IMG/VR virus record: IMGVR_UViG_3300034283_000468
Coordinates: 1-32,195 of that record
From: a virus
Length of the DNA: 32,195 nucleotides
Reading direction: 5' to 3' (one strand)
The position numbers and the translations under genes were made by a program. Numbering within the stretch: position 1 is the first letter of the stretch; the number at the start of each line of letters is the position of its first letter. Below, piece after piece: positions 855 through 18,560 of the stretch. The notes beneath the pieces are model-generated. The model did no database searches, was not told the DNA's origin, and was given only the letters and a program-made list of their open reading frames with translations.

Positions 855-912
855 TATATCTTATCAGGTATAATTTAATCTTATAAGATTATTTTATACT
901 TGATAAGGTATA
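855..912. repeat. 58-base near-perfect palindrome between two rightward genes
   Basis: The whole segment reads as an inverted repeat centred between bases 883 and 884, with arms of 29 bases. The central AATCTTATAAGATT (877-890) is perfect. Outside it only 874/893 and 875/892 fail to pair, and 867/900 and 859/908 become G-U pairs in RNA. Each arm carries a version of TTATCAGGTATA or TTATCAAGTATA. It fills most of the only sizeable intergenic gap (848-925) in the window. It lacks the GC-rich stem and trailing U run of a typical intrinsic terminator. It could be an operator for a dimeric DNA-binding protein (the next gene encodes an HTH protein), an RNA hairpin controlling processing or termination, or part of an origin. 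Confidence 0.8.
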
Positions 913-1451: not shown

Positions 1452-1472
1452 AAGGGGCCCGTAAGCCCCCTT
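1452..1472. terminator. Bidirectional intrinsic terminator between convergent gene blocks
   Basis: AAGGGG (1452-1457) pairs with CCCCTT (1467-1472) around a 9-base loop. It lies in the 29-base gap between the stop of the DnaA-like gene (TAA 1445-1447) and the stop of the leftward block (TAA 1477-1479 on the minus strand). Pairing continues loosely outward after one mismatch. U-rich sequence follows on the plus-strand transcript (TTATTCTTAATC) and on the minus-strand transcript (TTTTTATTA), so it can serve both directions. Confidence 0.7.
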
Positions 1473-1476
1473 ATTC

Positions 1477-4400
1477 TTAATCTTCTTTTTCTTTCATTTT
1501 AGTTTTGTCTCCAAACCAATTCCACATTGTAGTACCTCCAGGGACAAAAGCTCTCATAAATGACCAAAGTGGTTTACTATTATGTACTTCTACTTCATCA
1601 TTAAAGACTTGTCCTTTAGTTTCTCCGAACAAGTCTCCAAAGAATCTACCCATATCAGTAAATAATCCTACTGCTGGTACAGTTCCACGAGTAATAGCTT
1701 GAAAAGAATTAGGATTAAGATAAAAACCTATTTCATCGCTAAATCTATTTAATGTTTTAAGAGTTTCAGATTTAAACCTTTTATCCTCATCATCGTCATC
1801 CCAACCTTCTTTTAACCCTCCTATTAAAATCATTAAAGCAAGGTATAAAGAAATCTCCATTAAACCAGCTTTAACATTAGCTACATGCATATCATAAAAC
1901 ATTTCTCGAGTTACTTCATCTCTGGAAAGATGAGGATTTTCCTCCATAAACTCATTGTATAAAGTATCTACTATATTGTCAGTATTTACTCCAAATTGTC
2001 CAGTTACTGCGCCTTTAAGCATTTCTCCTATTAAAGGAATCATTCTTTTATTACCAATCTGATTCCACAAAGAAACAAACCTACCTTTTTCTACTGCATC
2101 TAGCTCAGCATCAAACTTAGCTCCACCAAACCTAGCTTCTAAAGTACGTGGTATCCAGCCTCTAAACTGCATTAAAGCTTGTCCAGCCATACTAAGCCTC
2201 CACCCTGACATATTATCTCTGGTAGACATACCTGTAATTTTTTCTCCTAGAGCTTGTACTTTATTTCTAAACTTACGGTATTCTTCTTCATTAAATAAAG
2301 TAGTAAGATTGGATTTACCATCCTTATCTATTGTAAGTTGTTCTAAAATAGACTTAGAACCTTCCGGTAATTTAGAAAGAAGCTTGATTTTACCATTTGC
2401 ATCTATACCATGACTCTGAATCATAGATACAGCAAGAGTTTTAAAAAGCATTTGGTCTCCATATTCATATAAAAAGAAAGCTTTTTCAAGATTAGCTTGA
2501 CGCATAGTATCATTTACACTAAGTTTGTCAGCTCTTTTAAAAATCTCATTGTCTCCTCTTATATCCAGTACTTGTAAAAACTGATATACTTCAGGATTAA
2601 AATTACCTGAAGTTACAAGAGTTTTAGCTTTTACCCAATCTTTTACTTTAAAAAATTGTCCTCCCGAAGCAAGGACAAGACTATTTACATTGTTACCAAA
2701 TATTTGAGCACCTCCTGATATTAAGTTAAGACCTAAGGCTTTAGTTGCAAAAGTTCTAAGAACAGCTTTACCTATCTTGTTCTTAGAATATTCCACATCT
2801 ACTATTTCTTCCTCACCTGTTTTAGGATTAACTACTTTCTTTTGTTTAGTAAAATAACCATAATCTTCTGACTCTTTTACGCCATATACATAATAGTTTA
2901 CAAAAGAATCAAATGTATCAAGAGTAGTAGCAGACACTATTTTATTAGATCCTAATAAATTCTTAATGACTTTACCATTACCGTCTACTAAAGCTTCGCT
3001 ACTATCTGCTAAAGCATTTCTAAGATTTCTGGCAGAGCCTTCAATTTGAGACATATATTTATAGTTGTAAGCTTTATTACCAAACAACATAAGTACACGT
3101 CCTAAATCATAGGACTTTTCTTTAGGGTCAATTTCCTTGGTATAATATACAGGTACTTGTCTTTCATACTCTCCGGTAAACTCATTAATTTGACCAAGGC
3201 GCATTTCTTCATCATACCTTAAATCAAACATATCTGAAAAGTCTTCTCCTAGTCCTGATATAGCTGCACTGCCTCCCAAGGTAGTAGCTTTTTCTATTAA
3301 ATCAGCACGAAGATTAGGAATAAACCTGTCAGGATCTGTCCACTTCTCATCTTTTCTAAAAGGCATAAACTCATTAAACTCACGCATCTTGCTTGTAAAC
3401 AAGGTGTAAAAGTCAAATGCAGGTTTAGTATTACGAAGAGTTTTATATCCTTCAGATAACCATTTTTCAGAAGGCTTTAAAAACTTTTTCATAAAGTCCA
3501 TTTGTGACGCATAAGCTTTAGGATTATTAAATACGTCATAGTTGTCATGAAGTTCTTTTATTTTAGCCTCCTGAATCTTTTTATTGTAGTCAACATTACT
3601 TGAGAATGTAGTATTTTTTATATAAGCTTCTTGATCTTTTATAAATTTTTTCAGGCTTGCTTCATCCAATACTGTATTTTCTTTCATCCACCTCCAGTCT
3701 CCATCTGCAATTTTTTGTTTACGAGTTTTATAAAACTCTGCAGAAAACTTACTGATTAACCTGCCTGTTTTTTTATCAAGCATCAGGTTAAATATATCAG
3801 TACCTTTTAATCCTTGAGACTTTCCCCACTCCTTAAGTGCCCCTAGTTTCTCTTCTATTTGAGCTTGTAAAGCATCAGAGTCACGTTTAGTATCTGTTTT
3901 AGCTTTATTTACCAGATTCCAAAAAGTTCTGAATATAGGATGATCTATTCTGCTTAATGCTCTTGAAAATTTACCTACAAGTCCTATAGGTTTAGCACCT
4001 TTTTCTTTGTACAATTGCAAAGCTTCATCTGAAAGACCAGCTTTATTAGCAGCATTCTTAAAGTAAGTAGCAAGCTCATTATTAATTTTTACAGCAAGTC
4101 GGCTAGCCTTTCCTGATATTTCATCAAACTGCTTTATATGCTTATCAGGTATCTTATTAGCTTCATAAAGAGGTGCAAATTTTCTACCTAAGTCAGTATA
4201 TACTTCAAGCTCTTCTTGCATATCTACAAGTTCAGCTTCAGAAAGAGGAATTTTAGTATCAGCAAGACGAGCTTCAATACTTTTAAATTGGACTGCTGCA
4301 GTTTCTGCGAATAACCCTAAATTCTTGTTAAGCTGTAAATCACGAATAGCTTTATTTAAAGATATGATTTTTTGAGTCTTTTTAGCTTGTTCTACAGCAC

Positions 4401-6009
4401 CAACTGCAGTTTTAGTACGAGCTTCTTTTTGTAAGGCTAAAAGCTGTGATATTAACTTATCAATAGTTTCATCTCCTGTTTTTTCATTACTTACAGGCAC
4501 TGGATTAAGATAAGGTTTTTCTCCTGTTCTACTACCAGGTATATTAATATTAATATCTACAAATTTAGTAGCCCCAGTATCTTTATCTTTTCTAAATACA
4601 TTCTCTATAGGAATGTAACGCCTTTTTCCAAAATCTTTTACTCCGCTTTTTTCTATAATGTCTTTGTAACTATTAAGCTGATATTCATATTTAATAGTTT
4701 TATAATAAGAAGGTTCTCCAAACTCTTCCTTTTCTCTCTTATTTAACATCATAGTTTTCCAGTCATAGATATGAACCTTACCATCTTTATCTATGACTAT
4801 TAAATCTACAGTACCTGGAGTATCTGTTGAAGGGTCATATACTATTTGTTCAGAAAGGTACACTGCATCTTCACCATGCACCTTCATTAAACCTTTTGCA
4901 AAATTCTCAAGTTTAGCATAAATAGTAGGATTAGTTTTAACTACTTTAGCAATACTACCATCTCTAGATAATATTCTTTTTGAAACATTATCCATATCAT
5001 CGTGGACTAAACTACCTATTCTACCTGACTCTTTCATTTGAGCTTCAGCTTTAGGAGTTCTTACAGCGTTTTTAAATCTTACATCAAACTTTTCATCACG
5101 TCTGGTAGTTACAGACTTGCCTAGCTTTTTACCACCTTTATAATAACCACGAGTTTCATCTGTACCTTCTCGACTAATTCCTTGACTTATAGCTTGTATT
5201 TTTTCAAGTACAACTTTTTGTTTTTCATTAGGAGCATTATTAAGCTGATAGTAAGTATGAGTATCTGTAATCTCTTGATTGAATAAAGACAAATCTTGTT
5301 GAGCTATCTTGTAAGCTAATTCTTTGAAAGGGCTATATTCTTGTACAGCATTTTCAAACTTAGCTTTGTCAAAAGAATTAAACATCTGCTTAACTTTGGA
5401 CAATAGCATGTTCCACCAGTTAGATGCTACTTTTTGTTGCTGAGGAGTAAGTCTTGATTGTTCATCTAAGTTAATTACTTCTCTAGTAATCAGCTTAGCC
5501 ATAGCTTCTCTACGAAGTCTTTCTTCATTATAGCCAGGTAGATTACCATATTCTTTTACTACTTCTTGAAACACAGGATATTTTGTAATAGCCTCAAACA
5601 TGCTTTGATATACATGGCTATTAGTATCAAGCATAGCTACTAAGAAGTGTACAACTTCTTCAGTCAAAGTAGTCTTATCTGCACGACCTTCTACAACTTG
5701 AATTACTTTATTAAGAAGATCAGCTTGAGCAATAGGTCCTAACTTTTGACCAGCAGCACCTGTTATCTCTTGAACTGCTTCATACTTTACACCTATCTGA
5801 GCAAGTATGTTGCGAAGCTTACTCTCAAGACTAGCATTAGCTTCTTGTAAACCTTTATCTGCTTCCATAGAAGTTTTACCTAATACTTCATCTATTGCAG
5901 ATTGAGGTACATTACCATTATATTTATCCCATAAGTCATATGCTGTGTGAGTATTTACTTGAGATGTAAGCTTTTGCCACTCTGGGCTATTTATGTTAGG
6001 ACAAATCAT
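1477..6009 (-). CDS. Giant virion/cargo protein with PD-(D/E)XK nuclease motifs, 1510 aa
   Basis: This is the last gene of the leftward block; its ATG lies 2 bases after the polymerase stop. Residues about 330-450 carry a RecB/Cas4-type PD-(D/E)XK signature: a conserved Glu strand (SEQIVY), D402 in GTVDLIV, D416-W-K418 in YDWKTM, and the trailing Q444xxxY448. These are the residues that bind metal and cleave DNA in that superfamily. Near the N-terminus, LTEEVVHFLVAML (H121) resembles the helix of the HEALH zincin in the preceding giant protein, but the first His is replaced by Glu, so it is probably inactive. The rest is largely helical, with a hydrophobic segment at about 1386-1400 followed by an acidic DDDDED run. 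No complete polymerase motif was seen. Position beside the polymerase suggests a co-packaged partner ejected with DNA (inference). The nuclease could trim or protect DNA; its target is unknown. Confidence 0.7.
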   Translation of the reverse strand: MICPNINSPEWQKLTSQVNTHTAYDLWDKYNGNVPQSAIDEVLGKTSMEADKGLQEANASLESKLRNILAQIGVKYEAVQEITGAAGQKLGPIAQADLLNKVIQVVEGRADKTTLTEEVVHFLVAMLDTNSHVYQSMFEAITKYPVFQEVVKEYGNLPGYNEERLRREAMAKLITREVINLDEQSRLTPQQQKVASNWWNMLLSKVKQMFNSFDKAKFENAVQEYSPFKELAYKIAQQDLSLFNQEITDTHTYYQLNNAPNEKQKVVLEKIQAISQGISREGTDETRGYYKGGKKLGKSVTTRRDEKFDVRFKNAVRTPKAEAQMKESGRIGSLVHDDMDNVSKRILSRDGSIAKVVKTNPTIYAKLENFAKGLMKVHGEDAVYLSEQIVYDPSTDTPGTVDLIVIDKDGKVHIYDWKTMMLNKREKEEFGEPSYYKTIKYEYQLNSYKDIIEKSGVKDFGKRRYIPIENVFRKDKDTGATKFVDININIPGSRTGEKPYLNPVPVSNEKTGDETIDKLISQLLALQKEARTKTAVGAVEQAKKTQKIISLNKAIRDLQLNKNLGLFAETAAVQFKSIEARLADTKIPLSEAELVDMQEELEVYTDLGRKFAPLYEANKIPDKHIKQFDEISGKASRLAVKINNELATYFKNAANKAGLSDEALQLYKEKGAKPIGLVGKFSRALSRIDHPIFRTFWNLVNKAKTDTKRDSDALQAQIEEKLGALKEWGKSQGLKGTDIFNLMLDKKTGRLISKFSAEFYKTRKQKIADGDWRWMKENTVLDEASLKKFIKDQEAYIKNTTFSSNVDYNKKIQEAKIKELHDNYDVFNNPKAYASQMDFMKKFLKPSEKWLSEGYKTLRNTKPAFDFYTLFTSKMREFNEFMPFRKDEKWTDPDRFIPNLRADLIEKATTLGGSAAISGLGEDFSDMFDLRYDEEMRLGQINEFTGEYERQVPVYYTKEIDPKEKSYDLGRVLMLFGNKAYNYKYMSQIEGSARNLRNALADSSEALVDGNGKVIKNLLGSNKIVSATTLDTFDSFVNYYVYGVKESEDYGYFTKQKKVVNPKTGEEEIVDVEYSKNKIGKAVLRTFATKALGLNLISGGAQIFGNNVNSLVLASGGQFFKVKDWVKAKTLVTSGNFNPEVYQFLQVLDIRGDNEIFKRADKLSVNDTMRQANLEKAFFLYEYGDQMLFKTLAVSMIQSHGIDANGKIKLLSKLPEGSKSILEQLTIDKDGKSNLTTLFNEEEYRKFRNKVQALGEKITGMSTRDNMSGWRLSMAGQALMQFRGWIPRTLEARFGGAKFDAELDAVEKGRFVSLWNQIGNKRMIPLIGEMLKGAVTGQFGVNTDNIVDTLYNEFMEENPHLSRDEVTREMFYDMHVANVKAGLMEISLYLALMILIGGLKEGWDDDDEDKRFKSETLKTLNRFSDEIGFYLNPNSFQAITRGTVPAVGLFTDMGRFFGDLFGETKGQVFNDEVEVHNSKPLWSFMRAFVPGGTTMWNWFGDKTKMKEKED

Positions 6010-6011
6010 TG

Positions 6012-9000
6012 TTAACAGTTATTTTCTAAAGTTTCTCCTTGTGAAGGTAAAGATTTGTTTTTAGGAAGTGCTAGTAGTAAAGGCTCTGACCACTGAGGAA
6101 ACTTGTCTCTAAATTCTCCAGTATTTACATTATTCTTATTAAGCATAGAGTTCATGTTGGCTTTCTTATATTCTTTAGAAAGTCTATCTCCACGCTTGTT
6201 AATAAGCTTGAATGAACCATCTTCAGTCTTAGCAAGTAACAAATATTCTGCTGTATCTAATCCTGCTGCTTTAGCCAAGGCTGCTTTATCTTTATCTTGG
6301 TATTCAGGATATGTAGCTTTTACTTTAAGGTACAATCTATTACCAAATCTTTTAGGCATTTGCCCTTTAAATGTACCAGTCTTATCTATAGTCAGACGCT
6401 CCAAGCTTCCTAGATAGGGTACTAAACTGCTGTTCATGTAATTATTTCTAATAAACTCTTGTATAAAATGGTCCGTGTCAAAATTACTAAGATTATCTTT
6501 AAATTGCTCAATAGCATTGTTTAATAATCCTGCCATTACATCTACAGGCACTTTATCATACCAAGTCTCTGCAGAATTATCTAAACCTGACTGAAATAAA
6601 ATTAAAGCTGCTAATCTTTTTTGTTCATTTACATCAGTAATTCCGCTAAATCCATTTACTATCTGGTTAAAATCAAATGTTGTAAGTTTTACATTAAACA
6701 TTTTAAGGGCTTTAACATCAGATTTTGGATTTTGGAGCAAAGGTATTAATTGTTTGTAGAAAGGATTTTTTCTTATAACAGGATTAGGACTTTTAAGTTT
6801 AGACGCAATCTCTTCAGGTAATGATTTAATATCTTCTGTACCTAACTGCAATCTTTTTTGTACATCTACCATAAAATCCTTACTTGCAGAGAACATGTAG
6901 ACTATTAAAGCATTTTTAGCTCTATCAAGTATATCATTAGAAGATTGCTCATCTACCTTATTACTTTTAAGATAATCTCTTATTGAATCTAAAGCTGTTT
7001 TAATCTTAGGAGTTTCTGTTACAAATAAATCCCTGTATACATCATGGAGCATTTGAGCCTTTTGAAAACCTCCTACAAGAGTATCATCAAAGATTTTTTG
7101 TATTGATTTAGAGTCAAACATATTAGACTTACGAACTTCATCCATACGCTTGTTATAATTATCCAAAGCATTGAAATTCTTATGTCTAACTGTATCATCA
7201 GAAGTAGCATCCATAAGCATACGCAAATTATTAGATTGCTCCATATATCTAGAAAAATCCTCTAAGACTTGTATCTGAGTTCTTACAAAAGAAATATCTT
7301 TAAGATTTTCAGATAAGTCTTTACCTACATATCCAGACAAGTTATCCTCTGTAAATGATTTAAAAGCTATCTTAGAAGCATCTGTACCTCCAAGATTTTT
7401 AAAAGCAGCTTCTAACAAAGAATAAAGCTCTTGCTTAATTTCACCACTACTTACGTCTGTACCATTCATGACATTAACCATAGACCTACCACCAGCATAC
7501 CTTTTAAAGTATTCTATGATTACAGGTTGAGTCATAAATTTAGAAGCTATTTCAATAGGTACTCCTCTGCGTATTAAATACATGTAAGTATCTGCAGTAT
7601 TGATATTACCATTAAGCCTAAAGATAAAAGGATCTTTTGCTACATCTACAAAAGCTGAAAGAAATTCAGAGATAATATCACCTATTTTATGCTGCTTGTT
7701 ACTATCAGAAATACCACCAAGACTGTAATTATCTTCTGACCCTGCAAAGTTTAATTTAGCAGAAGTCTGCTCATCAAAATTTACTCCACCCATGTATACC
7801 TTATTTATAGTAACTCCGGCTTGTTGAGTAAGAGTATGATGAGTTCTATGTCTGGCGACAATACCTACAGCTGCTTTACCTACAAGATAGTACTCTGCTG
7901 TGTCAAGGTTGTGTCCCCAAGTCAATGATTTAGTCTTACTTACAGGAGTTTCTTTTCCAGCAAGATCTTTTAAAACTACAGGGTCATTAGGCATAAGAAG
8001 GTCAGTATAATTTTCAGGAGCTGCTAAGAAATCCTGGCTAATGCTAACCATTTTATTATGGAGTGCTTGTTCTTTGTCTTTTACATTTAAAGAACCTTCT
8101 TTGGTAAAATGTCTAAAATACACATTCAATTTATCAATGTCAAAGTCACCACCTGACTTAGCTACTAACTCACTAGGTAAGTGAATAGCCTCACCTGCTA
8201 AGGGATCTAGGAATTCTACTATCTCAAGATTTTCAATAGTATTCATACCTTGAGTAGGAATCCTATAGGCTACAAACTGGAATATTTCAGGAGATATATC
8301 TCCAAGTAATTCTTTTACAGCCTCAGGATTATACCTTGTACCTCCTACTACTTTATCATTCTCTATTTCAAGAGACCAAAGCTTTTTAAGAATCTCATTA
8401 GTCTTAGCTATACCTCCTAACTTCTTAATAATTTGTAACATATCAGAGTTAGGAGCTACTTTTACTTGAGCAGGAAGAATCTCCCCATTCTTACCAGGAA
8501 TATAGAACCTAAGGTCAGGATTAGAAGTAAGTACTGCTTTACCAAATTCTGAAGTATAAGTACGTGGGCCACGTTCAAAGCCTGTACTAGCAGCTTGAAT
8601 CCTTGCTCCACCATTATACTTCTGAGTAATAACAGTATTGTTAATCAAAGAGAATAAAAGATTCTCAATCTTATTTCTGCTAGGTACTCCATCAAGAAGA
8701 TATTTAAATCTTATCTCTGTACCTTCTTCAACAGTACCAAGTGAATTTATAAGATTATCAGGAGAATTCCTGTTACGAGCAGCTCTGATTAATTTATTAG
8801 AGAGATTCTTTACATTAGTAATTTTATAGACTCCAGGCTTAACTTCTTTAGCTCCTATTTCAGCAAGAATTTTCTTAGCCTTTTCTTCTGTAATCTGATT
8901 AACTGTTTGATGATACTCTTTAACTAAAGCCTGTGTTTCTTTAGAAGTAAGAGATTTGGGTTTTCCATCTCTATAAACTGTAATAGGTTGGGCTACTCCA

Positions 9001-12000
9001 TTTTCATATCTGTCTGAAACTAAAAGTTTAGCATTCTGACTACCACGAGTTGTATATTCTTTTATTTCATTGTTAGTAGCTACTTGAATACCCATGAATC
9101 TATAATCAAGAGTAAGAGTATTAGCATTAGCTGCTACAGGATTACCTTCATATTGACCTTCTTCTACTATATCATCATACAATGGATAGTAATTTCCATC
9201 AGGTTGCATCAAGGCACCTATCTTTATACCTTGAGGATATACAGCTACACCTTGACCATTAGCCATCATAGACTCAGCTATAGCTTCCATGTTAGTACCT
9301 TTATAAACAGAAGGTATAAGAGGAAGCAAACTGAATTTAAGATATACAGGAACAGAAAGATTATCTATTTTATTTAATCCAAAGTATTGCGCTTTAAGTA
9401 CATTAAATACTTTAGTTATTTTATCTACAGGTATATTATCTCCACGCATTACTTGCTGATAAAGACTTTCTTCTACCCTTCCCCATTCACCTACTCTTAA
9501 TCTAAACTCTCTATATTCTGGTAAAGTAATGTATCCTTGTCCATCAGCTTCTTCCATTGCAGAGTATTTACTTGCAAGAAGGCTACCCTTTTTAACACCA
9601 AACTTTGTCTCAAAAGCTTTTCTTATATCAGATAAATAGGAAGACATAGTTACAGGTTCTTGCATAACTACTACTTCAAAGAATCCATCTTTAACTAGTT
9701 TACCATCTTTGTCAGACTGTGGAAGACTATTAATGAAGTTATTAATACGTGTATCTACTATAGCCATTTTCTTAGTACCTACTGCACCAGCAGTTCTCTT
9801 ATAAAGGTCTACAGCTGATTTGTAAAAAGCAGGGTGTCCAAAGAACAGTTTAGTCTGTTCGATATTACCTATCAAACTATTAGCTGTAAAAGCTTCAATA
9901 AGATTATCAAACTGAGCTACACTCATTTTAACACCTTGTTCAGACTTACTAAATGTAGTCCCAGCTTCTTTCTCAAACTGCTCTGTAATTCCTTTATCTA
10001 AAGCACGAAGAGTTACTGCCATTCCACTTGCTGTAGGAGTATACACAGCAAGATTATTATCAACTAAACGCTGTATAACTTCTTTATTATGAAGTTCTAA
10101 ATAATCTGAAATAGCTTCTCTAATGGCTTTTATATTAGTAGTTACATAATCTTCTACAGATTGAGTAGGAAGAATAGTAGGTACCTTGTCTTTTATAATC
10201 TCTTCAAAGAAATATAAACCATTACCTTTATTCTTACCAAAATTAGCAATTAAACTACCACCTGTTTCTTTACCTACAAGTAGTTCGTCTGCTAAATATC
10301 CTACAAGAGTTTCTATTATCTCACTTCTTTTGCTATTAATATTACCAGGCCTAAAAAGAGGATTACCTTCTCCTTCCCTAGTTATATCTATTGCATACTC
10401 TAATGACTTGTCTGAAGTTCTAAGGATTGGGAAGATTCCTTTAAGGATTGAATTAAAGCTCATCCAAGTCCTATCTTGTTTATCAGACTGAGTATTTACT
10501 TTACCCTCTGCAGCTGTTTGATTAGGACGAGCACCTTCTATAATTGTTATTTTAAAAGGTACATCAGTTCTTACATACCGTCCATTTTCATTTTTCCTAA
10601 ATAAAATCTCATTTAATAATTTTGAATTACTTATATAAGGAGATAATAATCCTGGGAATTTACCAAACCTTCCATATAGTTTATGTATAGGAGTACCTAC
10701 AGGCATACTGTTTATATACTCTGCGAGCATAGAGATGGCATTATGTTCAGATACTCCATAACGAGTTTTACCATCTGGGCCTATATGCTGTAAATCTGTA
10801 ACTTCATAAAGCTTAGAAGCTGCTATCTTAGCAAGATTGAATAGACGTGACTTTGAAGCTTTATTAAAAATATAATCTAAATCTAAATCTTGTCCACTCT
10901 TAGGCTCTTTAGACAACTGAGCTATAAAATATTCAGCATTCTTTGTAAATTCTTCAGCCTCTTCCTTATTATATTCAGAAGGATCTGTAACATCAATAGT
11001 AAAGCCAAGTTTATTTAATGCCTCCATGTAATATTTAAAAGCATCAGTCCTAGGAATTTTTATAGTTTTAAGAATCTCTCTTACTTTCCTATGACTAACC
11101 CTTGGTAAAGAAGCATCTGTGGGTTTTACTATAATAGATTCAGTAGAACCAATATTTTCTACTAGTTTGCTACGCCATGTAGCAACAGTTCTATCCTCAG
11201 CAGTTTCTGCGTTAGGGTCTTGTTTTACTACATCTCCTTCATTTACAAGCCATAGATTATAATTCAATGCAGTCTTATACATAGACTGCTGAAAATTAGT
11301 AACCAAATTATTTGCTTCTAAAGGATCCTTAGCCATATTTGCAGGATCTGTAAGTAAAGCAAGTAAGGTCTTATAATGAGGAATCTCTTCGGAAAGTCTT
11401 TCTAAGACTTTTACCATAGAGTTATTATCACCAGGGTCATTAAAAGTAGTTGAAGTATGTAAAGAAGATAGCAGGTGATTAAACACACTGTTAGGATTTA
11501 CAAGCATTTGTAAACCAAGCATGTCTCCTTTTTCAGGAGTCATTATTCCATCAACTCTTGAGTAAGCAGGTAATGATGCTACCATTAATTTTACAAAGGC
11601 ATTTGTACCTTCTCTAGGGTGAATTGTAGAACTATCTTTACCCCAAGCATTACTATCTCTATCTGTTCTTTCTTGCTCGTTTATATCATCTTCTTTGTAA
11701 AGACCCAGGTCAATAGCTAAGTCATTCTGTATATATTCTTTTACAGCATTTCTTATTTTCTTACGTCCTGTTTCACTGGTATAAAGAGTGTTAAAAGTCT
11801 TTTTAGTATTTATAATTACGCCAGTAGGAGTTTTATAAAGTGTATTATCAGGAAGCTTATCTATTTCTTGCTTAGTCCTTCTTATACCATCATCTATAAA
11901 AGTTTCTAACTCTCCTACAGTCATCTTTGCTAAATCTCCTATACTATTATTAGCATTGAAAAGAGATTTAAACATATTACCAACTACAGAATGAGTTACC

Positions 12001-15000
12001 TCTTTAGTGAACAAAGCAGCTGTTACTTTATCTATAGGCCTTGTAGTACCATCTTTTTTTAAAGTAGACCAAGTTATTAAACTAAACCTACTTGGAACAA
12101 GTATACGTTCTTTTGCTTTAACACGATCATAAGTCCTACTAACATACTTACCGTTGTACAAATTGTAAAACATTGAGTCAATTGCTCCTGAAGGTTTTAC
12201 TTTAAAGATTGCTTTAATAGCATCCCATATAATTTCAAAAATAGTTTTAAGGTTCTTTGTAGGATAAGTCTTACCACCACTTAATGCAAAAGTTCTAAAG
12301 TCTTCTGCAAGCATCTCATCATAGAATACTGTAATAAGCTGCGCTTTATTAAGTTTAGGATATATTTTCTTTAGTTTAGCAAGGTCTTCCTCAGTAGGGT
12401 TGCCGTAAAGCTTTGTAGCTTCTTCGTAAACTTTTGCAAGCTCTTCATCTGTAAGAAGACCTAACATTACTTCATGTAAAGCTTCGTGATATTCAGTACC
12501 TTCTTCTGCAAGTTCAGATAAATAAAGTACAGCATCTCCTGTAACTTTACCTTGGGCTATACTATTAAGAAGCTTTTTAGCTCTTTTAACAGTAACTTGT
12601 GGTAAATTCTTAGCAATCCAGGCTTCAGCTTTAGCAAGATCTATCTTAGGACCTCCTGTTTGCTGTGTTCTACCTAATCCATCTAAATCTTCATCTTCTT
12701 CTTCTGTAATAATAGGGTCTTCCTCAATCTCTTCTTCTGAAATATCAGCTTCTTCTCCTGATTCTACATTATCTGTAACTACAGTTTCACCACTGCCCAT
12801 AAGAGCAGCAAGTTCAGAACTTTCTCCAGCTGCAAACTCTCCTCCTTCTGCAGGAGCTGTAGGAGCAGAAGCTACTAAAGATTCTAGCTTTGTAGCAATC
12901 TTTCTATACGTATCATATATCTCAAAACCTGTAGATTGACCAGCAGCCTTAATCTTATTTGCTAATTCATCATCCTCTAAAGATTCTACTAACTCAGTAG
13001 CTACAAATTCATCAAAAGCTTTTTCTCCAAGTATAGATTTTACTTTTTTAAATATACTATCTAATTCTGTTGATACAACATTTCCTTCCTCGTCTGTGGG
13101 ATAATTAGCATCTGTAAACTGTGCTTCTCCTTTATTTATTATACTTTTAACTTCTTCTAATAAAGAAGCAGCTGAGCTTTTTGCAGGAGGAGGTGTAGTA
13201 GTTCCAGCTTTAGGAGGGGTGTAAGTAGCTTTAGAAGATTCAGGAGTCTCTTTTATAGCTTCAGGATTATCAGAATATTTAAGATAAGTACTCTTGATTA
13301 TAACTTCTCCATTACTATCTGTAACAGCATTAGTAGTAAGAGGTATATCTTCTACAGGACGAGGATTACCATTAGGTTGTTTGTTGCTTATAAGATATGA
13401 GAAGTAGCTATTATGTTTTGTAGTTTCTACATAGAGAGGCTTACCTTCTTCATCAAATACTACTCTGTTAACTTCTAAATGACTACCTGATTTGCCAAGT
13501 TTATCATTACTAATCTGATGGTATTTATTTTCTAAGAAGGTAAGTAAGGCATCTTTATTAGCTTCAAGACTTTCTTGAGTAAAAGGTATTTCTACCCTAG
13601 TACCCTTAGTAAAATCATAGAAAGAAAGTTGACCTTCAGTTAAATAAAGTTGAGTTTGAGGATTAGGACGTGAAGAAAGAAGTGCATCTTCAGCTTTATC
13701 TTGTCTACCAAAATAGACAATTCCACGTAAGTAATCATAGATACTAAGAGTGTCTTGTGTCTTAGACTTACGAGCTGCTTCAGCTTCTTCTTTAGTAAGT
13801 TGTTTCCTTTTGTAGTAACCCCAAGATTGCTTGGCTTTATTCCAAAATAACTTAAATTTAAAGCCTTTAGATTTTTTATTTATAGCTCCTATTTTTTTCT
13901 GAGCCTGTTCTTTATCTTTACCTAAAAGTACAAATTCACTTTTCTTCTTTTTTGTAGTAGTGGCTTTTTGTACAGCTTCTGCTTCTTCAGGTGCAAGAGC
14001 TATCTCAGCACTAGAAGTTAATGCAGTAAGAAGGTCAAATACTACCTGAGTTTCATTAGAACTAAGTTTTCTAGAAAGAAGGGGTACTACTACATCTTCA
14101 TCTGTAATAAAATAAGCCAGACCATTCTTTACCTTGACTTGTTCTTTACCTACAGTAATATAACCCCAACCTTCTGCAGCATCTTCATCATTAGTAGCCT
14201 TGGCTATTTCTATCCTACTCTTACCTAATCTTTCACCTTTCTTATTTTCTGTATTACCAAGAAGGGTATCCCATACAGCAGTAGTTAAATCCCTATCTCC
14301 TGTACGTTTATAAGGAGTAGTTTCAAGAAGTCCTAAAGATTTACCTGTAACAGGTAAGAAAGAATTAATACCAGCTGCAGCTCTTTCAAAAAGCTTATCT
14401 CGTAAAGCCTGGAGTTTCTCCATAGCCTGTGCAGCCTCAATAGGCCTGTCTTTAGCATCATAAAACCTTTCGTAGTTCTCTGTTTGAAGAGTAGGTAATG
14501 GAATAAAATTATATACAAGCTGGTCTTCTCCAGCATTCTCTCCTAAAGGTTGAAGGTTAGCATCTACAGGGGCCCCATTCTTATAAAGAATAACTGCTAA
14601 TGCATCTTTCTGCATTTTTTCAGGTAAAGGCTTACCTTCTGCATCTACAAAAAGATCAGGGCGCTGCTGAGCTGTAACTACACGCAAAGAAAACTTTGCA
14701 TTAGATAGCTTAATTTTAGCTACAGTTTTAGACCATCTTTGCTGAGCTTTATTAGGATTAGGAGTACCGTCAGGTAGAGTATCCATACCTGCAGTTTTAA
14801 ATGCATTATCTATGCTAGGTTTTGGAGATAAATAATTAGTAATTAAAGTATCTTGAGAGTTATCAATCTCTTGGGTATATGTTCTTTTTGCAGCTTGTCT
14901 AGGCGCACTTTCAGCTTGTTTAGCACGACGTTCTGCAAGAACTTGGGCCAAAGTATCTTCAAATAAAGATCTTTCTTTATTTAAAGAGTTAATCATTTTT

Positions 15001-18000
15001 TCCCAGGAGTTTATATAACTTTGGATTTCAGCAAGTTGCTCTAATACAGCATCTAATTGTTTCTCTTCTATACCAAGATTTAAAAAAGCTTGTGTTTGTT
15101 CAGCACGTAATTGTCGTAATAATGGAGTAACATCTGTCTGCCATTTTACCATTAAGTTATTTACAGTAGCTGGGTCTACACCATAGATACTTTTATATAA
15201 AGCTTTGAACCTAGGATAAATAACTTTTACTAAAGCTTTTAGCGCATCTATTACTTCCTGCATTCTTTCTGCAGTAGCCTCAGCTTGATTCTTAGCGTCT
15301 TGTACATCCCTAATTTGCTTTTGTAAAGCAGCTATGTCTTCAGTTATAGCTTTATTAAAAACATCTCTTCTAAATCTATTCTCTTGAACTTCTTTTAACC
15401 CAGCAAGAGCTTTATTATTCTCTTCAAATAATGTAGCTCTTTGCTCATCAAGTTCTGCAATCTTTGCTCTATATTGTGCAAGTTTATTTTCAAGGTCAAA
15501 GATTTTAAAAGTAGTTTTTATACCATCTATTGTAACCCTAATTCTGCCAGACTTAGTAGCTTTAGCACGTTTTAAAAGTTCTTCAGCCTCAGTTATACTT
15601 TCTTCTATAATTTCTTTTTGTGCTCGTAAATTTTCAGCTAAAGCCATATTAGCTTTAATCTGCTTTTGAAGAGTTTGAACACGTACATTATTATATATTT
15701 CCTGACGTTGTTCTTCTCTACTAAAAGAATTAGATGCTAAAAATGAAGGGTCTTTTTCAAGGTCTTCTAAGTTATATACATTACCATCTTTATCGTACAT
15801 AACATTAGGTTGACCTCTTTTAAAGAAAAGGTCAATAGTATCATCTATTGTTTCACGAGATTCTACCGGATTTTTAACTTCTACCTTAACTTCTTTACCA
15901 TCTACAATAACTTTATATGTAGCATATTTATCTCCAGCTTTAGAAGTCCTTACAGCTGCATTACCATCTTCATCTATAAGGTTAGGATTTTCTGTAACAG
16001 GTTGTGCATCTTGAAGTGTAATAGGAGCTCCTGTAGATTTAGAAATACCTGTAACAGTTAACTTATCTTTTTTACCATTGTCTACTTTAAAGACAGTACT
16101 TTCAAACCCAAACTCTGGGTCTTCATTAGTATTAGCTTGGTAAAAATTCTTATACCTTTCTTCTTTAGAAGTCTTATCTAGAAATCTTTCCTGAGCATCT
16201 GTTTCAGCTAAAGCTTGTGCATTTTCTGCATACCTTTTATCAGCCATCTTAAAGTATGCATCATTCATAGTTTGTCTTTGCAAAACTAAACCATATAAAT
16301 CCCTGGCTTTTTCAGCAAACTTAAGTTTAGTTTCAGGGTTACTTTGGTACTCTAAGTACTCATTTACAAGCCTTCTATAATTATCAAGTCCTTTCTTTTT
16401 ACTTAAGAACTGCTCTAGATCTACAGGAGTGGCTAATGCTGAGAAATCTGAAATGTATTGTATCATTTCAGGAGTAAAGTTTTCATTAAGCCCACGAAGA
16501 AACTGAGTACCTGTTTCTGCTTTAATTTCTCCGAGTAAAGAATTAATCCTATCATCTATATCCAAAGTTGCAGCAGCTTTTAAAAGCATATCTTTACGTG
16601 CTCCTTCAGGATAATCTGAAAATCTTACATCAATATCTTCTTTAATCTTTTTTATTTTATCAGCTTGTTTTAAAGCCTTTTCTCCCTTATCTTTAATATA
16701 TTGTTTTACTTGATCATCATCCATACCCTTGAAAAAATCAAGAGTAGTTTCTTTTCCTGTTACAGAAGAAACAACTTTAGAGCTGTACTTAGCTCTAAGT
16801 TCAGCAGCACTAAGTAAATTTTCATCCTGTATTTTACTTTTTAAATCTTCAAACTTACCTATTTCTACAAAAGTATCTACCATGTTAGCAAGTTGCATTG
16901 AGTTGATAGTTTTATGATTCATTCTATCATCTGCTAACAATGCTTCATCAGCCATACTTTTTAAAGCATTGTCTACTACTTGACCTTCATATAATTTTTT
17001 GGTAAGTGTGTCTTGTAAATAACTATTAGCAGCTTCTACATTTCTTTTAAAAGATGCGTCTGCGGCACTTAACTCTTTATATTCTCCATAAATACCACCT
17101 TCAATACCTAATTTTACACCTAACTTAGAACCAGGAGCACGTTTAATTGTAGGTATTCCTAGTCCTCCAATAACTAAACCTGCAAATGCATTTTCCCAAC
17201 CTTCTTCTGTACCATAAGCTTCTTGTAAACCACGTCCTATAGAAGTAATAAAGTTTTGTACATCTGAATTAGCATCTTTATCAAGCCTTAAGTTGTAGTA
17301 ACTTTCTGCAGTTTTTTGAATAGCAAATTGTCCCTGCTCTTCTGTCATCTCCATTAAAGGATCTTTAAGAAGTTTTGCAGTATAGTCTAAACCTTTTTGA
17401 AACTTATTTCTTTTTACAAGTTCATATAAACCTGTATCTTCAGCAACATTAATAGCCTCAGTAGTTAAAACTTTATTAGGTGTATAACCTTTACTAAAGA
17501 TATTTCTAAACTGAGTATAGTTAGATAAAGTAAGTAATCCTACGTTAGCTGTAAATACAGAATTTTGATAATTCTGAGTTTCTTTCTCTAAATTATTTAG
17601 TTCTTGCTCATATTCTTGAGGAGTTATCTCTCCACTTTCAATTTGAGCCCTAAGGCCTTGCATCCTCTGCTCTTTAAAATCTTTACCATTTTGTAAAGCT
17701 TCAAAAGTAGATTCACCTAAAGAACCTACAAAGGAAGATACGACTTGATTCATAGCCGTTTTACTTTTTATAGCTTTAGCTACAGTAGCAAGTTCATCTA
17801 ATACTTGTGTATTTTTTAAAGCAGCCAATTGTTCACCTGTTAAAGTAGCCACTTGTTTCATGGCAGCTTGTTCAGCTGCAGTTAAAGTACGTCCTTCTTG
17901 TAAAGCTTTAGACAATCCTTCTAATACTTTAGAAGTATTCCTAAGTGTAGTAAGTCCAAATAATTCTGCTCCTATACCCCCAGTTACCATACCTGCACCC

Positions 18001-18560
18001 ATTGCACCTACTGCAAATCCAAGGTTTTTAAGGATAGTTTCTCCCCAAAAGTTAGTAGGATTTTTAATGGCGTTAATCCAAAAAGGATTATCCATTTCTT
18101 CTTGAGTACGATAGTTAGGTAAAGCTTCTTCTAATCTTTGTTGAAAATCTACCATTTCTTTGGAAAAAGGATTATCTATAAATCTATTATATAATCCTTG
18201 ATCTTCCTTACCTGTTGCTAAATTAACAAGACCTGCTAATACTCCTATAGTACCTTGAGCAAAAGTAGAACCTGCTATTCCGACAAATTTAGTAGCACTT
18301 CTTCCAAGTTGTTCTGTCCAAGGCTGCAGTTGTGCACGCATTTCCTCATTGTCAGCACCTATCTGGTAACCTGTATGTAAATAATCAAAGTAAGTATTAT
18401 CCTTATCTGAAACACTTACTTGTGGACTTCTTACAACAGTTCCTCCATAAGGAGTCTCAGCATATCTTTGATTAATGCTGTTTAACTCCATTTCTACTAA
18501 CTCAGTAGGAGTATAAGGTTGGTTAGTTCTTGGGTTTATATTAACAAGATTTGGCCGCAT
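6012..18560 (-). CDS. crAss-like virion RNA polymerase polyprotein with zincin motif, 4182 aa
   Basis: The catalytic centre is D3472-F-D-I-D3476 in KSGGDFDIDKLNVYF, preceded at 3433-3436 by RIPT. This matches the beta'-type double-psi barrel of multisubunit and YonO/phi14:2 gp66-type RNA polymerases (RxPT ... ADFDGD). Lysines in QKYNGGARIQ (K3314) and PAQVKV (K3367) are candidates for the partner barrel. In other crAss-like phages such polymerases are packaged and transcribe early genes after ejection. Other parts in order: hydrophobic Gly-rich segments (about 91-116, 176-205) that could enter membranes; a long helical/coiled-coil region (about 950-1210); Pro-rich (about 1790) and acidic (about 1920-1955) linkers; a metallopeptidase-like H2025-E-A-L-H2029 with E2082/E2086 as possible third ligand; then the polymerase from about 2150. 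At 4182 aa it is nearly twice the roughly 2200 aa of phi14:2 gp66. It starts 14 bases after the muramidase stop. Confidence 0.88.
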   Translation of the reverse strand: MRPNLVNINPRTNQPYTPTELVEMELNSINQRYAETPYGGTVVRSPQVSVSDKDNTYFDYLHTGYQIGADNEEMRAQLQPWTEQLGRSATKFVGIAGSTFAQGTIGVLAGLVNLATGKEDQGLYNRFIDNPFSKEMVDFQQRLEEALPNYRTQEEMDNPFWINAIKNPTNFWGETILKNLGFAVGAMGAGMVTGGIGAELFGLTTLRNTSKVLEGLSKALQEGRTLTAAEQAAMKQVATLTGEQLAALKNTQVLDELATVAKAIKSKTAMNQVVSSFVGSLGESTFEALQNGKDFKEQRMQGLRAQIESGEITPQEYEQELNNLEKETQNYQNSVFTANVGLLTLSNYTQFRNIFSKGYTPNKVLTTEAINVAEDTGLYELVKRNKFQKGLDYTAKLLKDPLMEMTEEQGQFAIQKTAESYYNLRLDKDANSDVQNFITSIGRGLQEAYGTEEGWENAFAGLVIGGLGIPTIKRAPGSKLGVKLGIEGGIYGEYKELSAADASFKRNVEAANSYLQDTLTKKLYEGQVVDNALKSMADEALLADDRMNHKTINSMQLANMVDTFVEIGKFEDLKSKIQDENLLSAAELRAKYSSKVVSSVTGKETTLDFFKGMDDDQVKQYIKDKGEKALKQADKIKKIKEDIDVRFSDYPEGARKDMLLKAAATLDIDDRINSLLGEIKAETGTQFLRGLNENFTPEMIQYISDFSALATPVDLEQFLSKKKGLDNYRRLVNEYLEYQSNPETKLKFAEKARDLYGLVLQRQTMNDAYFKMADKRYAENAQALAETDAQERFLDKTSKEERYKNFYQANTNEDPEFGFESTVFKVDNGKKDKLTVTGISKSTGAPITLQDAQPVTENPNLIDEDGNAAVRTSKAGDKYATYKVIVDGKEVKVEVKNPVESRETIDDTIDLFFKRGQPNVMYDKDGNVYNLEDLEKDPSFLASNSFSREEQRQEIYNNVRVQTLQKQIKANMALAENLRAQKEIIEESITEAEELLKRAKATKSGRIRVTIDGIKTTFKIFDLENKLAQYRAKIAELDEQRATLFEENNKALAGLKEVQENRFRRDVFNKAITEDIAALQKQIRDVQDAKNQAEATAERMQEVIDALKALVKVIYPRFKALYKSIYGVDPATVNNLMVKWQTDVTPLLRQLRAEQTQAFLNLGIEEKQLDAVLEQLAEIQSYINSWEKMINSLNKERSLFEDTLAQVLAERRAKQAESAPRQAAKRTYTQEIDNSQDTLITNYLSPKPSIDNAFKTAGMDTLPDGTPNPNKAQQRWSKTVAKIKLSNAKFSLRVVTAQQRPDLFVDAEGKPLPEKMQKDALAVILYKNGAPVDANLQPLGENAGEDQLVYNFIPLPTLQTENYERFYDAKDRPIEAAQAMEKLQALRDKLFERAAAGINSFLPVTGKSLGLLETTPYKRTGDRDLTTAVWDTLLGNTENKKGERLGKSRIEIAKATNDEDAAEGWGYITVGKEQVKVKNGLAYFITDEDVVVPLLSRKLSSNETQVVFDLLTALTSSAEIALAPEEAEAVQKATTTKKKKSEFVLLGKDKEQAQKKIGAINKKSKGFKFKLFWNKAKQSWGYYKRKQLTKEEAEAARKSKTQDTLSIYDYLRGIVYFGRQDKAEDALLSSRPNPQTQLYLTEGQLSFYDFTKGTRVEIPFTQESLEANKDALLTFLENKYHQISNDKLGKSGSHLEVNRVVFDEEGKPLYVETTKHNSYFSYLISNKQPNGNPRPVEDIPLTTNAVTDSNGEVIIKSTYLKYSDNPEAIKETPESSKATYTPPKAGTTTPPPAKSSAASLLEEVKSIINKGEAQFTDANYPTDEEGNVVSTELDSIFKKVKSILGEKAFDEFVATELVESLEDDELANKIKAAGQSTGFEIYDTYRKIATKLESLVASAPTAPAEGGEFAAGESSELAALMGSGETVVTDNVESGEEADISEEEIEEDPIITEEEDEDLDGLGRTQQTGGPKIDLAKAEAWIAKNLPQVTVKRAKKLLNSIAQGKVTGDAVLYLSELAEEGTEYHEALHEVMLGLLTDEELAKVYEEATKLYGNPTEEDLAKLKKIYPKLNKAQLITVFYDEMLAEDFRTFALSGGKTYPTKNLKTIFEIIWDAIKAIFKVKPSGAIDSMFYNLYNGKYVSRTYDRVKAKERILVPSRFSLITWSTLKKDGTTRPIDKVTAALFTKEVTHSVVGNMFKSLFNANNSIGDLAKMTVGELETFIDDGIRRTKQEIDKLPDNTLYKTPTGVIINTKKTFNTLYTSETGRKKIRNAVKEYIQNDLAIDLGLYKEDDINEQERTDRDSNAWGKDSSTIHPREGTNAFVKLMVASLPAYSRVDGIMTPEKGDMLGLQMLVNPNSVFNHLLSSLHTSTTFNDPGDNNSMVKVLERLSEEIPHYKTLLALLTDPANMAKDPLEANNLVTNFQQSMYKTALNYNLWLVNEGDVVKQDPNAETAEDRTVATWRSKLVENIGSTESIIVKPTDASLPRVSHRKVREILKTIKIPRTDAFKYYMEALNKLGFTIDVTDPSEYNKEEAEEFTKNAEYFIAQLSKEPKSGQDLDLDYIFNKASKSRLFNLAKIAASKLYEVTDLQHIGPDGKTRYGVSEHNAISMLAEYINSMPVGTPIHKLYGRFGKFPGLLSPYISNSKLLNEILFRKNENGRYVRTDVPFKITIIEGARPNQTAAEGKVNTQSDKQDRTWMSFNSILKGIFPILRTSDKSLEYAIDITREGEGNPLFRPGNINSKRSEIIETLVGYLADELLVGKETGGSLIANFGKNKGNGLYFFEEIIKDKVPTILPTQSVEDYVTTNIKAIREAISDYLELHNKEVIQRLVDNNLAVYTPTASGMAVTLRALDKGITEQFEKEAGTTFSKSEQGVKMSVAQFDNLIEAFTANSLIGNIEQTKLFFGHPAFYKSAVDLYKRTAGAVGTKKMAIVDTRINNFINSLPQSDKDGKLVKDGFFEVVVMQEPVTMSSYLSDIRKAFETKFGVKKGSLLASKYSAMEEADGQGYITLPEYREFRLRVGEWGRVEESLYQQVMRGDNIPVDKITKVFNVLKAQYFGLNKIDNLSVPVYLKFSLLPLIPSVYKGTNMEAIAESMMANGQGVAVYPQGIKIGALMQPDGNYYPLYDDIVEEGQYEGNPVAANANTLTLDYRFMGIQVATNNEIKEYTTRGSQNAKLLVSDRYENGVAQPITVYRDGKPKSLTSKETQALVKEYHQTVNQITEEKAKKILAEIGAKEVKPGVYKITNVKNLSNKLIRAARNRNSPDNLINSLGTVEEGTEIRFKYLLDGVPSRNKIENLLFSLINNTVITQKYNGGARIQAASTGFERGPRTYTSEFGKAVLTSNPDLRFYIPGKNGEILPAQVKVAPNSDMLQIIKKLGGIAKTNEILKKLWSLEIENDKVVGGTRYNPEAVKELLGDISPEIFQFVAYRIPTQGMNTIENLEIVEFLDPLAGEAIHLPSELVAKSGGDFDIDKLNVYFRHFTKEGSLNVKDKEQALHNKMVSISQDFLAAPENYTDLLMPNDPVVLKDLAGKETPVSKTKSLTWGHNLDTAEYYLVGKAAVGIVARHRTHHTLTQQAGVTINKVYMGGVNFDEQTSAKLNFAGSEDNYSLGGISDSNKQHKIGDIISEFLSAFVDVAKDPFIFRLNGNINTADTYMYLIRRGVPIEIASKFMTQPVIIEYFKRYAGGRSMVNVMNGTDVSSGEIKQELYSLLEAAFKNLGGTDASKIAFKSFTEDNLSGYVGKDLSENLKDISFVRTQIQVLEDFSRYMEQSNNLRMLMDATSDDTVRHKNFNALDNYNKRMDEVRKSNMFDSKSIQKIFDDTLVGGFQKAQMLHDVYRDLFVTETPKIKTALDSIRDYLKSNKVDEQSSNDILDRAKNALIVYMFSASKDFMVDVQKRLQLGTEDIKSLPEEIASKLKSPNPVIRKNPFYKQLIPLLQNPKSDVKALKMFNVKLTTFDFNQIVNGFSGITDVNEQKRLAALILFQSGLDNSAETWYDKVPVDVMAGLLNNAIEQFKDNLSNFDTDHFIQEFIRNNYMNSSLVPYLGSLERLTIDKTGTFKGQMPKRFGNRLYLKVKATYPEYQDKDKAALAKAAGLDTAEYLLLAKTEDGSFKLINKRGDRLSKEYKKANMNSMLNKNNVNTGEFRDKFPQWSEPLLLALPKNKSLPSQGETLENNC

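Follow-up and report, generated by a model that had tools for sequence, protein, structure and literature searches.

The locus at positions 855-912 raises a simple question: what is a long palindrome doing between two genes of a phage operon? A sequence-only reading had left three answers possible: an operator, a replication initiation site and an RNA hairpin. The window, meaning the whole 32,195-base viral contig that was analysed, is a fragment of a Crassvirales phage. It was classed as crAss-like because the matches listed for its 1510-aa protein among named phages are all to crAss-like phages; the best of these is uncultured phage cr108_1 (Crassvirales, Steigviridae), with 24% identity over 95%. 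This protein also shows a weak PD-(D/E)XK exonuclease match at about residues 270-480. Genes occupy the + strand from 1 to 1447 and the - strand beyond, the - strand block including one open reading frame of 4182 aa (6012-18560). In the + strand block, the end of a MazG-type pyrophosphohydrolase gene is followed by the gene of a 192-aa protein and then by that of a 173-aa protein, and the palindrome occupies the 78-nt gap separating the last two. The features are as follows.

2-262, + strand: 3' part of a MazG-type nucleotide pyrophosphohydrolase gene (phrog_671, E 8e-26)
269-847, + strand: gene of the 192-aa protein; its stop codon precedes the stem by 7 nt
855-912, + strand: intercistronic hairpin of 58 bases; in the sense RNA, a 19-bp outer stem, U-U/U-U internal loop, 6-bp inner stem and 4-nt loop
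855-872, no strand assigned: left arm, imperfect 18-bp dyad TATATC-N6-GGTATA
895-912, no strand assigned: right arm, likewise an imperfect 18-bp dyad (TATACT-N6-GGTATA), at a distance of 40 bp from the left arm
926-1447, + strand: gene of the 173-aa protein with a predicted DnaA-domain-IV-like fold, start 13 nt past the stem
1454-1469, + strand: terminator-like hairpin at the meeting point of the + and - gene blocks, from the terminator scan
1477-6009, - strand: gene of the 1510-aa protein

The 29 potential pairs of 855-912 comprise 25 Watson-Crick pairs, two G-U pairs (pairs 5 and 13, counted inwards from the ends) and two T-T oppositions (pairs 20 and 21), exactly as counted earlier for a near-perfect palindrome with two of 29 pairs unpaired and two G-U. 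It is the top palindrome of the window in the repeat search. The hairpin score of the window is 20.0; when the whole window was shuffled 100 times with its dinucleotides preserved, the maximum was 18.0 and the mean 11.9. The RNA of + strand 848-925 folds at -28.3 kcal/mol (z -9.8), a value that none of 200 shuffles equalled. The palindrome is real and is not a product of chance. Known elements were not recognized in it: all eight Rfam matches in 700-1600 were weak and under the gathering score, those spanning 854-915 being far under theirs, no tRNA or tmRNA was found in the window, and no sigma-70-type promoter is listed within the palindrome. A match of the latter type in the related contig L124 (5574-5601) overlaps the TATAAT of an arm; L125 is without it. 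As to the surroundings, a nucleotide-metabolism gene had been said to precede the palindrome; the MazG-type gene does lie upstream, but the immediate neighbour is the 192-aa gene. Relatives of the latter in named phages are weak only (Cellulophaga phage phi14:2 and cr4_1). In cr4_1 the layout is convergent as in the window, the slot after this gene holds no gene, and the gap carries another terminator-like hairpin.

The gene downstream had been called DnaA domain IV-like, and the predicted fold bears this out. An AlphaFold2 model (pLDDT 79.5) was built from an alignment of five of the seven DnaA-like proteins found, the cut ones of L123 and L126 being omitted. In VIA-align the top six entries are all DnaA, with Z from 11.2 to 8.9 and the next row at 5.5 (3pvp_B: Z 11.2, 93 aligned, rmsd 2.4; 1j1v_A: Z 10.4, 91 aligned, rmsd 2.3). 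Foldseek also ranked DnaA domain IV first, with E-values of 0.18 and worse. Searches of sequence libraries with the 173-aa protein gave weak matches and no significant DnaA family, and tblastn revealed no relatives in named phages. The 173-aa protein is thus DnaA-domain-IV-like as a statement on its modelled fold, which covers about residues 50-147; unlike domain IV of DnaA itself, the domain is free-standing in a 173-aa protein and has 11-14% identity in the structural alignments. The gene probably encodes a regulator. Between the window and L124 the DnaA-IV-like protein is 43% identical and its 192-aa neighbour 85%, so that the former evolves far faster.

Contigs with the 192-aa gene and readable DNA downstream of it, found by scans with this gene, allowed the slot to be compared in nine cases: the window, L123, L124, L125, L126, L127, L128, L162 and L163. 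The hairpin is present in four of them (the window, L123, L124 and L125), as three distinct sequences, since L123 equals L124. The DnaA-like gene is present in seven, although L123 and L126 have it incomplete because the contig ends within it. Absence of the palindrome from relatives keeping the gene had been named as what would refute the earlier reading, and the picture is divided: L126, L127 and L128 keep the gene, beginning 8 nt past the stop, without a palindrome, and L123/L124 and L125 have both. The hairpin is therefore dispensable. The 192-aa genes pair by identity as L125 with L127 (83%) and the window with L124 (85%), so a single loss of the hairpin in the line of L126-L128 would be the simplest history. 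A search with a degenerate hairpin pattern gave no contigs beyond the three known, and no relative was found in the genome contigs. The palindrome scan covered G000, G001, G002, G003, G005, 40,000 of the 40,610 bases of G006 and stretches of cr108_1, phi14:2 and cr4_1; it left out G004 and ran in separate pieces, so that a palindrome spanning two pieces would have escaped it.

The slot is filled differently in L162 and L163: 5 nt past the stop stands a short, G+C-rich hairpin that has a T-run, and after it a sigma-70/ECF-like gene in place of the DnaA-IV-like one, to which it is unrelated (TIGR02937, E 6e-8, in L162; Sigma70_r4_2, E 1e-5, in L163; both below the curated cut-off). This replacement suggests that the last gene of the operon may be a transcription regulator of an interchangeable type. 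The exchange of one hairpin for a terminator-like one makes the slot itself seem to be a punctuation point. In a blastn comparison with the L002/L124 contig, the window is 79% identical over 1-847 and 95% identical over 1464-15994, with no alignment in between, where L124 carries the homologous hairpin and the homologous DnaA-like gene. The step from 79% to 95% against the L002 contig thus falls across the hairpin and this gene, and looks like a recombination border of the replication and late blocks.

Comparison of the three distinct hairpins indicates the level at which the palindrome is maintained. Their stems have 25, 23 and 24 pairs, about two helical turns and nearly continuous. They begin 7, 5 and 3 nt after the stop codon and end 13, 13 and 12 nt before the ATG, the window giving the values of 7 and 13. 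In the stem, 88.9% of cells are paired and both partners have changed in 6 of 27 pairs. This covariation was matched by 11 of 500 shuffles, in a control that ignores relatedness. Sliding the stem partners abolishes the covariation, and the dyads inside the arms show none beyond shuffles (304 of 500 reach it). Where the arm-internal symmetry conflicts with the long pairing, the long pairing prevails (pair 8/11 in the window; pairs 8 and 9 in L125). The imperfections of the stems in the sense RNA are seven G-U against no A-C, at seven different positions (5 and 13 in the window; 11 and 12 in L124; 7, 8 and 18 in L125), a count that omits pair 28 of L125, which is a G-U in the loop, and the unpaired ends (pairs 1-3 of L124, pair 1 of L125). 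The remaining mismatches inside the stems are U-U.

A ratio of 7:0 has a probability of 0.5^7 = 0.008. Strand mutation bias is not its cause, since fourfold sites of the surrounding genes have a G+T of 0.47-0.53 in four phages with balanced transitions; G/(G+C) alone spans 0.36 to 0.62 at the same sites. A DNA palindrome gives no ground for preferring G-U over A-C, and pairing in the sense RNA explains the pattern simply. The sense strand also folds better than the antisense strand (-27.3 vs -17.1 kcal/mol in the window; -35.7 vs -30.3 and -36.6 vs -27.1 in the others), which restates the G-U asymmetry as energy. In comparisons with L125, the hairpin is more alike than the fourfold sites of the neighbouring gene (41/58 vs 15/35; 42/59 vs 15/36); between the window and L124 it is no more alike than these sites (40/58 vs 25/41, p 0.52). 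The covarying stem and the G-U-only imperfections, with no strand bias at fourfold sites, point to selection on the fold of the sense RNA, as far as three sequences of shared ancestry can indicate. Among the three initial possibilities the RNA hairpin is hence the best supported.

The palindrome would accordingly be read as the DNA image of a long hairpin in the sense transcript, serving as a punctuation or processing signal of the mRNA; this reading is given slightly better than even chances. Upstream of the hairpin is the 192-aa gene, with which the + strand replication and nucleotide block ends, and downstream of it is the DnaA-domain-IV-like gene. Cleavage of the double strand, or a stable or protected 3' end, would split the message of the regulator from that of the operon. 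The stem might be cut by a double-strand-specific ribonuclease such as the RNase III of the host. Stems of 23-25 pairs have a length fitting for enzymes of this kind, and phage T7 mRNAs carry intercistronic RNase III processing hairpins; it is this length and this precedent for which RNase III is proposed. The T7 elements are likewise long intercistronic hairpins of a phage operon whose ends lie near stop and start codons. They differ in that 855-912 has conserved TATACC hexamers and belongs to another phage group and host, and cleavage here is putative. With the stem ending 12-13 nt before the AUG, the downstream start region would stay open, and the stem may insulate the start of the 173-aa gene from ribosomes finishing the 192-aa gene.

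The hexamers are the feature that a plain nuclease site leaves unexplained, because their conservation exceeds the needs of a sequence-blind nuclease. Each arm is an imperfect TATACC-N6-GGTATA, giving four TATACC-like hexamers per hairpin, and invariant columns make up 17 of 24 in the hexamers but 2 of 12 in the middles of the arms, with columns grouped after the data were seen. The half-sites proposed earlier, TTATCAGGTATA and TTATCAAGTATA, are not conserved as such, the former occurring once in the whole 32,195-base record; what is conserved is the TATACC/GGTATA hexamer at both arm ends. Room is left for a sequence-specific binder, perhaps the 173-aa protein. Such a protein could repress its own gene by binding the four hexamers, either as DNA dyads 40-41 bp apart or in the RNA hairpin. 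Paired operators of HTH dimers are used by phage repressors, and the duplicate TATACC-N6-GGTATA dyads beside a gene with a DNA-binding fold resemble them. The hexamers are kept while the arm middles vary, and a dyad pair about 40 bp apart was found only here in seven records searched (up to two mismatches per dyad), single weaker dyad matches elsewhere being about as frequent as those of a reversed control pattern. An operator on DNA, however, leaves unexplained the complementarity of arm middles and spacer with G-U and without A-C, and has no need of the covariation seen between the two N6 parts. Moreover, L126-L128 have the gene but lack the site, and the hexamers are retained even where identity of the protein falls to 43% and 28%. 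The operator is therefore retained as a candidate secondary to the RNA hairpin, tentative and rather unlikely.

Another possibility is a transcription terminator or attenuator with a weak or lost U-tract. Terminator-like hairpins do occur in these phages: one stands in L124, L125 and L127 at the place matching 1454-1469 of the window. Those of the window (1454-1469), L124 (6176-6195), L127 (6130-6153) and L162 (3438-3459) share a GGC-CCGTAA-GCC core, which with at most one mismatch is found once each in six of nine records, always near this operon end. The hairpins with the GGCCCGTAAGCC core take the same slot in L162 and L163, and the tail of the L124 hairpin is U-rich (TTATTATTTG). In the window, the tail after 912 (AAACAAACAGGAT) has no T-run, so the usual pattern of an intrinsic terminator, a G+C-rich stem followed by a T-run, is lacking there. 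The stem of 855-912 is long and A+T-rich, unlike the G+C-rich terminator-like hairpins, and has another loop. The terminator scan lists only 1454-1469 in the window and leaves out this hairpin there as well as in L124 and L125; its silence is weak evidence, because the hairpin of L162 is also unlisted. Termination is considered quite unlikely.

A functionless origin was also weighed, in which the palindrome is a quasipalindrome whose arms are kept complementary by template switching during replication. RNA hairpins can arise and be maintained through template switching, which may also account for asymmetry in the frequencies of pairs in RNA stems (PMC8794818), so the G-U asymmetry is not clean evidence against it. 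If one arm were simply repaired from the other, no preference for G-U over A-C would nevertheless be expected, against the 7 to 0 observed, and the hairpin keeps its position and its distance to the AUG although its flanks change, which makes this explanation very unlikely. A replication origin or a site of a DnaA-like initiator, suggested by the adjoining DnaA-IV-like gene, is hardly credible and was rejected: the GC skew passes from + to - where the genes converge, a terminus-type switch that tracks the coding strand and recurs in the hairpin-less record G005, and there is one dyad pair here in place of a site array. Protelomerase sites are palindromes of similar length, and the strand-asymmetric G-U pattern argues against one.

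The locus at 855-912 is a conserved RNA element; its general type is already familiar, and the phage group that carries it has been little studied. Within the search words used, no description of a regulatory RNA hairpin in crAss-like phages was found in the open-licence literature. The dnaA passages of PMC7963479 concern the dnaA of the host, and the words DnaA, promoter, hairpin and terminator are absent from the main text of PMC7886860. The DnaA-domain-IV protein and the covarying hairpin might together form an autogenous switch, in which the element is read both as a DNA operator and as an RNA hairpin and times the end of the replication operon; this is considered unlikely. If the DnaA-IV-like protein does read the hairpin, it would be an unusual use of the DnaA domain IV fold. 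The hairpin at the operon end, replaced by a terminator-like one in sister contigs and absent in others, would offer a simple entry to how crAss-like phages separate their replication and regulatory messages.
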